A stretch of 64,000 nucleotides of DNA from the NCBI GenBank assembly GCA_028285415.1, contig JANQPF010000022.1, positions 124,001 through 188,000 of the forward strand, given 5' to 3'. Origin of the DNA: Pseudomonadales bacterium (lineage in GTDB: Bacteria; Pseudomonadota; Gammaproteobacteria; Pseudomonadales; Azotimanducaceae). The position numbers and the translations under genes were made by a program. This document shows, piece after piece, positions 63,041 through 64,000 of the stretch (within the stretch, counting starts at the first letter, position 1; each line of letters opens with the position of its first letter). Below the pieces are notes generated by a model. The model made no database searches and was not told the DNA's origin. It worked only from the letters and a program-made list of their open reading frames with translations.

Positions 63041-64000
63041 ATGGAAAATCTGCTTGCCGCCGGTTTTACGCTGCTGGCAACTCACGGCTACGTCATCGTA
63101 TTCGTGTGGATGTTTGCCGATCAGGCGGGGCTGCCGTTGCCTTCGATTCCCCTGCTGGTTGCCTGTGGCGCCCTTGCGGCAGCCGGAGATTTGAATTTGT
63201 GGCTGCTCATCGCCTCGGCGAGCCTGGCGACGCTGCTGGCTGACTTTTTGTGGTACGGGCTGGGCCGCTTGCAGGGCGAAAAGGCCGTTTCCCTGGTATG
63301 CCGTCTGGCGTTGGAACCCGACAGCTGTGTCTCTGCTACCCGTACGGCATTTGGCAGGTTCGGGCCGCTGACGCTGGTCATTGCGAAATTCCTGCCGGGT
63401 GTGCAGACGCTGGCGCCGGCGTCCGCCGGTCTCGTGCAATCGCCGTTGCTGGGCTTTCTGCTCCTGGACGTTGCGGGCACGTTGCTGTTCATTCTGCCGT
63501 TCATTCTCGGAGGCTACTTTTTCCAGGCTGAGTTGGTTGCCTTGCTCGATGGGGCAGGCGAGGTTGCCGGCGGCGTTGGCTGGCTGATTGCCGCGGTGCT
63601 TTCCGTTTATGCGGTCGTCAAAGCGATGCAGTGGTTTACGTTTTATCAGCAGCACCGCCTGCGGCGGATAACGGCGGAAGAGCTGGCGTCACGAATGGGC
63701 GGTGAGGATCCCGTGACCGTCATTGATCTGCGCCAGCGCCTCGACTTTGAGATTGAGCCGCGCATCATTCCAGGGGCGCTGCGCATTCCGATCAACGAAG
63801 TAGGCAGAAGACGCAACGAGATTCCCGTGCGCTACGATGTGGTCCTCGTCTGTACGTGACCCAGCGAAGCTTCCAGCGCCCGTGTGGCGCTGTTTCTCAG
63901 CAAAATCGGGTTGGACAAGGTTTATCCGCTGGAAGGTGGCATGAATCGCTGGATTGATCTCAACCTGCCGACGGAGCTGCCGGAACCTTCCGACACCTGA
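63041..64000 (+). CDS. DedA-family membrane protein fused to rhodanese, candidate selenoprotein (UGA273)
   Basis: Residues 1-200 are a DedA/SNARE-associated membrane domain: MENLLAAGFTLLATHGYVIV, DQAGLPLPSIPLLV and KFLPGVQTLAPASAG. The rest is a rhodanese domain with VIDLRQRLDFEIEPRIIPGA. An in-frame TGA is codon 273, after VVLVCT. Translation resumes in the same frame as PSEASSARVALFLSKIGLDK and PLEGGMNRW to a TGA at 63998-64000. In ordinary DedA-rhodanese proteins the segment reads C-PNEATSAR-VAL with Cys at the TGA position, the catalytic residue. Conventional translation would yield a 272-residue protein lacking the active site. A 62954 start adds an unlikely tail. Recoding as selenocysteine is inferred; a nonsense mutation or sequencing error is not excluded. 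Confidence 0.78.
63874..63892 (+). promoter_or_regulatory. SECIS-like stem-loop downstream of UGA
   Basis: CAGCGCC and GGCGCTG form a perfect 7-bp stem around the loop CGTGT, whose second base is G. The loop starts 21 nt after the in-frame TGA (63857-63859), within the 16-37 nt range described for bacterial SECIS elements. A short lower stem (GAA/TTC) is possible. The stem also encodes the conserved residues S-A-R-V-A-L, so some of the complementarity could come from codon choice. Confidence 0.6.

Follow-up and report, generated by a model that had tools for sequence, protein, structure and literature searches.

The gene that closes the window, which here means the whole analysed stretch of 64,000 nucleotides, almost certainly encodes a selenoprotein, in which the UGA codon at positions 63857 to 63859 is read as selenocysteine (Sec) and a DedA membrane domain is joined to a rhodanese domain with a C271-x-U273 motif. 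The preliminary description of this DNA, made from the sequence alone, had proposed the reading of UGA as selenocysteine, and the proposal is supported by the presence of the selenocysteine machinery, by TGA in 36/36 near-full-length copies, by cysteine at the site in 21/21 more distant fusions, by purifying selection past the TGA and by a covarying hairpin. Within the cell, the UGA would be decoded by the cell's own SelA, SelB, SelD and tRNA-Sec, with insertion of selenocysteine directed by a SECIS hairpin situated within the coding sequence.

Gene structure and selenocysteine machinery

Translation of the forward strand from 63041 to 64000 yields a frame with exactly two in-frame TGA codons, at codon 273 (63857-63859) and codon 320 (63998-64000), as had been read initially. 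The gene begins with ATG at 63041, encodes 319 residues with selenocysteine at position 273 and ends with the frame closing at 64000, the last letter of the stretch. In the alignment, the start at 63041 matches the start of two relatives (L009 and L013), while the codon at 63998-64000 behaves as the true end of the gene, with relatives terminating nearby with TAA, TAG or TGA and no shared sequence beyond it in the aligned relatives' rows. The VTT (DedA) membrane domain covers residues 33-159 (63137-63517; Pfam PF09335, 41.2 bits with a cut-off of 33.9) and the rhodanese domain residues 211-305 (63671-63955; Pfam PF00581, 39.5 bits with a cut-off of 22.2), the latter recovered equally by Foldseek comparison with the PDB. 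Both domains are over their cut-offs, the initial assignment of a C-x-U motif (C271-Thr-Sec273) to a membrane-domain fusion is upheld, and the rhodanese match spans the TGA codon, which bears out that typical rhodanese sequence continues past it. Around codon 273 the motif reads V-C271-T-U273-P-S-E-A-S-S-A-R, with the partner cysteine C271 encoded at 63851-63853.

The genome from which the window derives (5.97 Mb, 34 contigs, completeness 99.03) was searched with profiles for selA, selB, selD and tRNA-Sec, the check that had been suggested at the outset, and all four were present over their cut-offs. The tRNA-Sec scored 73.6 bits with a cut-off of 47 and was classified by ARAGORN as tRNA-SeC with anticodon tca; selB scored 408.8 bits, selA 523.4 and selD 271.0. 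The genes for tRNA-Sec, selB and selA are grouped at 3571-6863 of contig C4, which comprises 14,452 bases. Directly downstream of the tRNA-Sec gene (L001 1498-1590) on the same contig, a tyrosine-type phage integrase (PF22022, PF13356, PF00589; L001 159-1418, minus strand) is found, so that integration appears to have occurred at the tRNA-Sec gene. The selD gene (L050, G000:C21:106114-107010, minus strand) is situated in an open frame of 729 amino acids, compared with 311 positions in the model, and this long frame possibly represents a fusion protein.

In the family of the window (f1), selB was detected in 163 of 206 genomes and selenocysteine use is thus widespread. Among the 36 carriers of the TGA-containing gene, selB was present in 30 (29 of the 35 in the family of the window, plus G255 from another family), and was not found in G763, G688, G694, G719, G720 and G802, genomes of 73 to 96% completeness in which assembly gaps may explain its absence. 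On the other hand, three of the four tested genomes with the cysteine form of the gene also possess selB (G094, G122 and G170, not G029), and machinery alone therefore does not decide between selenocysteine and cysteine.

The UGA codon and the hairpin behind it

A match at E <= 1e-12 was present in 37 of the 206 genomes of the family, giving 35 near-full-length copies, the window's included, while the other two matches were a fragment in G799 and a DedA-only copy in G684. The 36th near-full-length copy was found in G255, which belongs to another family of the order. The fragments G699:C217 and G790:C153 (with one TGA each), G790:C167 and G799:C67 as well as the DedA-only copy of G684 were left out of the comparison. 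All 36 copies read, the window included, have TGA as the same codon and share the motif C-x-U-P-x-E-[AV]-[ST]-S-A-R, with 38 to 66% identity between the window protein and the other 35 copies. Close relatives with TGA at this codon had been named among the points to check, and as the same codon recurs in 36 assemblies, a local sequencing error is untenable.

More distant DedA-rhodanese fusions have cysteine at the site in 21/21 read (20/20 in one set, plus G462), which is the cysteine at position 273 of homologues that had been looked for. In a search of 398 genomes of the phylum (E <= 1e-25), 21 had a match; the window's row has the TGA, the 25 other rows list no internal stop, and 19 of these 25 were read for the motif, leaving out two rows each of G1063 and G1128 and one each of G1130 and G1096. 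In the order, seven of 390 genomes had a match at E <= 1e-30, with the TGA in G000 (the window's own genome), G255 and G279 and without it in four. In a tree of 57 rows, a branch with 100/100 support separates the 36 selenocysteine rows from all others, and the gene is apparently a selenocysteine variant of a known fusion family with one origin that has been kept for long. The G255 copy (L134, contig C10), the only one outside the family of the window, nests inside that family on the tree; its genome shows 6% contamination and the gene is absent from 9/9 other genomes of its family f47, which points to transfer or contamination, and it is thus not counted as a separate origin. The copy in G685 (L131) has, besides the shared TGA, an extra in-frame stop in the DedA part; as its closest relatives have intact copies, it may have decayed or reflect a faulty assembly.

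Decay of the region past the TGA in relatives had been named in advance as a finding that would speak against selenocysteine. Over 630 pairs, mean amino-acid identity rose from 0.495 in the part preceding the TGA to 0.613 in the 45 codons that follow, and pN/pS in 19 close pairs was 0.138 before and 0.191 after. Judged by these measures, the codons past the TGA are under purifying selection in the relatives and not decayed.

At a spacing of 21 nucleotides from the UGA, a SECIS-like hairpin is located at 63874-63892, with a stem of seven base pairs (63874-63880 with 63886-63892) and the loop CGUGU (63881-63885). Across the 36 sequences, standard pairs occupy 228 of 252 pair cells. In 500 shuffles of the pairing partners, a control that ignores the relatedness of the sequences, the paired share (90.5 versus 84.4%), the number of cells changed on both sides (21 versus 7.7) and the covariation score (0.223 versus 0.111) were each matched by 0/500, while the count of pairs showing such two-sided change (3 versus 2.2) was matched by 174/500. 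Sliding the partner by one to three columns reduced the paired share to at most 54.4%, and when the same pair pattern was tried at 278 codon offsets throughout the gene, it reached 0.905 at the TGA, compared with 0.718 or less at the other offsets. Pair 24-30, which links two third codon positions, is intact in 36/36 (C-G 29, U-A 5, G-C 1, A-U 1), and the seven sequences that depart from C-G occupy four separate positions in the tree (G683; the clade G781/G796/G800/G801; G661; G255). In the stem as a whole, two of the seven pairs are broken, one in 12 and the other in 11 of the 36 sequences. Synonymous conservation, scored with six-fold codon families split, placed codons +8, +9 and +7 at ranks 1, 3 and 4 among 288, and when 300 segments of seven codons were compared, the top seven all began at +2 to +8; codons +5, +6, +10 and +11 are unremarkable (ranks 70, 253, 75 and 94).

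The constraints for bacterial SECIS elements given in the Fig. 2 legend of PMC13188914 are a loop of 3-9 nucleotides with G in the first two, a distance of 16-37 nucleotides from the UGA and a minimum free energy (MFE) <= -7.5. The window's hairpin falls within this rule with its loop CGUGU, its spacing of 21 and -12.8 kcal/mol, and 34/36 copies pass by the MFE of 48 nucleotides and 30/36 by the hairpin alone. The rule passes also 10/20 cysteine forms by hairpin energy and 16/20 by the MFE of the whole stretch (45 nucleotides), and alone it thus does not discriminate. Equally, folding energy compared with synonymous shuffles is a weak signal (mean z -0.72; 14/36 below -1), so that the case for the hairpin rests on covariation together with synonymous conservation and codon choice; an Rfam scan of 63700-64000 gave no match to a SECIS family. 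The cysteine forms do not share the hairpin, forming 2 to 6 of the seven pairs (20 rows) compared with 5 to 7 in the selenocysteine forms. As far as covariation and codon choice can tell, the hairpin past the UGA is a SECIS.

That the TGA is an ordinary stop, as the product of a sequencing error or in a pseudogene or truncated gene, with the rhodanese remainder untranslated, has a negligible probability. Mechanical reading of the frame indeed ends at 63859 and the G685 copy with its further in-frame stop may be decayed, but the recurrence of the same TGA in 36/36 copies, the purifying selection past it, the covarying hairpin and the presence of the selenocysteine machinery argue against such a stop. 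Very improbable as well is that the UGA is passed by leaky read-through or by insertion of another amino acid. The identity of the residue is derived from sequence comparison and 6/36 carriers lack a selB match, which leaves some room for this explanation; against it stand the cysteine at the site in 21/21 outgroup fusions read, selB in 30/36 carriers and a hairpin with the SECIS spacing and loop published in PMC13188914.

A putative chalcogen relay on a DedA domain

Five cysteine or selenocysteine residues are present in the window protein, of which C87, C96, C271 and U273 each occur in 36/36 selenocysteine forms and C42 in 1/36. The cysteine pair C87 (63299-63301) and C96 (63326-63328) is situated in a loop of the DedA part (63299-63328). 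Each of the two is found in 19/20 cysteine fusions, where C271 is found in 20/20, and both are absent in 23/23 homologues that lack C-x-[CU]-P-x-E; these controls are the better-scoring DedA matches only (L018-L040), some of which contain stops of their own.

The second re-entrant segment (63386-63406) differs from the controls as well, with K116 and Q122 in the window protein where 23/23 controls have two arginines. The selenocysteine forms have lysine (35) or asparagine (1) at the first place and glutamine (34) or alanine (2) at the second; the cysteine forms have lysine (15) or arginine (5) at the first and never arginine at the second (20/20). According to PMC10127716, Arg130 and Arg136 of YghB are essential and likely bind the phosphate of undecaprenyl phosphate (UndP); K116 and Q122 would be their counterparts by a reading of the motif. 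The two-arginine pattern of COG0586-type UndP flippases, as described there, is thus replaced by K116 and Q122 in the window protein. At the tip of the first re-entrant segment, placed by residue numbering, D27 is present in 35/36 selenocysteine forms and an acid 12 residues on is lacking in 35/36. As the arginine reported to be essential in UndP flippases is lost, the DedA part probably acts on a different substrate or functions as a membrane anchor with redox coupling.

Mean net charge over the 36 sequences is +2.6 in segment 74-109, +4.6 in segment 195-212 and -1.9 in segment 159-180. Positively charged segments face the cytoplasm by the positive-inside rule, and charge together with conservation suggests that the rhodanese domain and the DedA loop with C87 and C96 are located on the same, cytoplasmic side. 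AlphaFold, applied to the whole protein with two sequences, gave a poor model (pLDDT 57.4). The model of the rhodanese domain, of moderate confidence (mean pLDDT 65.5), places C271 and U273 in the active-site loop that joins strand 266-269 to helix 276-288, and its Foldseek search against the PDB retrieved rhodaneses with a best E of 3.8e-6.

The preliminary description had placed the TGA exactly at the catalytic cysteine, of which the pairing with cysteine in homologues stands, while the classical position is divided two to two, as column reading of four alignments to solved rhodaneses puts the classical cysteine at 273 in 3iwh and 3gk5 and at 271 in 3foj and 6pfz. A rhodanese with C271 as classical sulfur carrier and U273 as resolving or activating helper in a selenium-based second step is a possibility to be taken seriously, if one we lean away from: C271 is invariant in selenocysteine and cysteine forms, is positioned after strand 266-269 in the model of the domain and is the classical cysteine in two of the four alignments. 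The rhodanese active-site loop up to the helix usually has six residues, a length that is obtained when counting from U273, and this count stands against C271 as classical position together with the other two alignments. A selenosulfurtransferase activity of the protein is plausible.

The four conserved chalcogens C87, C96, C271 and U273 may form a relay, a proposal based on conservation and the inferred topology to which we give somewhat less than even confidence. In such a relay, U273 would accept sulfane sulfur as selenosulfide, C271 would resolve it by way of an Se-S bond, and C87 with C96 would re-reduce it or take the sulfur onward, with selenium at position 273 conferring faster turnover and resistance to over-oxidation. 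The protein would most likely be membrane-bound and relay persulfide or sulfane sulfur, instead of flipping a lipid carrier. In its full form, in which the DedA domain, originally a lipid-carrier flippase, would have become the C87/C96 thiol partner of a C-x-U rhodanese, giving a membrane-located selenocysteine-dependent chalcogen relay for sulfane sulfur or reducing equivalents, the proposal is tentative. Clustering of 235 open reading frames around the 36 loci revealed no conserved gene neighbours; the largest cluster occurred in only 7 of the 36 loci, so that no operon argument can be made.

The protein might instead handle selenium itself, by selenite uptake or by delivery of selenium to SelD, which we consider improbable. 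A link between DedA and selenite was reportedly described by Ledgham in 2005. Rhodaneses are equally discussed as carriers of sulfur and selenium in PMC9369223, but a near-full-length gene in 35/206 family genomes, set against selB in 163/206, indicates that selenocysteine synthesis does not need the gene, and clustering of the genes around the 36 loci revealed no shared partner. It is also unlikely, if somewhat easier to conceive, that the DedA part has remained an undecaprenyl-phosphate flippase, regulated by the selenocysteine rhodanese through redox state or sulfur. COG0586 DedA proteins are putative UndP flippases in PMC10127716, and they include rhodanese fusions, but the second arginine is lost in 36/36 selenocysteine and 20/20 cysteine forms and kept in 23/23 controls. 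Moreover, deletion of Pseudomonas aeruginosa dedA genes other than PA4029, including the DedA-rhodanese gene PA1209, left fosmidomycin susceptibility unchanged, as reported in PMC12893004.

Relation to known selenoproteins and DedA proteins

Selenoproteins of the CxU rhodanese type are already listed in PMC13188914 and PMC9312934, where the 'rhodanese-like domain-containing protein form 3' with CxU (TKB26178.1; Table 1 of PMC13188914) corresponds to 'COG0607 form 2' of PMC9312934, and PMC1088965 and PMC2398784 report sulfurtransferase selenoproteins from marine metagenomes. The words DedA, VTT, SNARE, transmembrane and flippase occur zero times each in the available text of PMC13188914. In the open-licence literature, no report of a selenocysteine-containing DedA or DedA-rhodanese protein was found, the family being found described in the cysteine form only. 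With CxU rhodanese selenoproteins and DedA-rhodanese fusions each known, the combination appears to be new in as much as no report of it was found, and new are the four invariant chalcogens, two of them (C87, C96) in the DedA part and two in the C271-x-U273 motif of the rhodanese.

The best NCBIfam match of the window protein is NF041203 (rhodanese_LYCAU), the model that goes with these CxU rhodaneses and has C-x-U at the same place, which matches residues 196-312 with 71.8 bits. As this score lies below the curated cut-off of 115 of this equivalog model, the window protein was not assigned to it; furthermore, the model has 126 positions and covers only the rhodanese end of the protein. Among 369 genomes of the class, none has a match to NF041203 over the cut-off and 25 have one at E <= 1e-15; the 25 rows comprise two DedA-rhodanese fusions (G000 and G462) and 21 other rhodaneses without the motif, with rows L064 and L077 left out as not read in the right frame.

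The cysteine DedA-rhodanese fusions (PA1209 of P. aeruginosa and the 21 cysteine forms read) share both domains and the pattern of C87/C96 with C-x-C, and the rows read are 31 to 38% identical to the window protein. They differ in having cysteine in place of selenocysteine and in not sharing the hairpin, and the selenocysteine forms constitute a separate clade. A selenocysteine form is thereby added to the DedA-rhodanese membrane protein family, and the comparison of 36 with 21 sequences read provides a clean case for asking why selenium pays its cost. Should the relay be true, it would be the first function for rhodanese-fused DedA proteins, whether with selenocysteine or cysteine. When UGA is taken as stop, such genes would be annotated as shortened DedA.

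The COG0586 UndP flippases (UptA and kin, as presented in PMC10127716 and PMC12893004) have the VTT domain in common with the window protein, which matches the NCBIfam PRK10847 and UptA models; these matches are, however, all below cut-off, and the window protein has lost the second arginine, gained the cysteine pair and added the rhodanese. The cysteine pair gained and the arginine lost in fused DedA proteins lead to the prediction that fused DedA proteins are not UndP flippases. With this residue pattern, a remark in PMC10127716, that the connection between rhodanese and UndP is unclear, becomes testable. Finally, the model of the window's rhodanese domain resembles those of persulfide dioxygenase-rhodanese fusions and NAD-dependent persulfide reductases (PDB 5ve3, 6pfz, 3nta), a likeness of the rhodanese fold only, as these proteins combine it with another partner domain and have no selenocysteine, whereas in the window protein a rhodanese with C271-x-U273 is joined to DedA.
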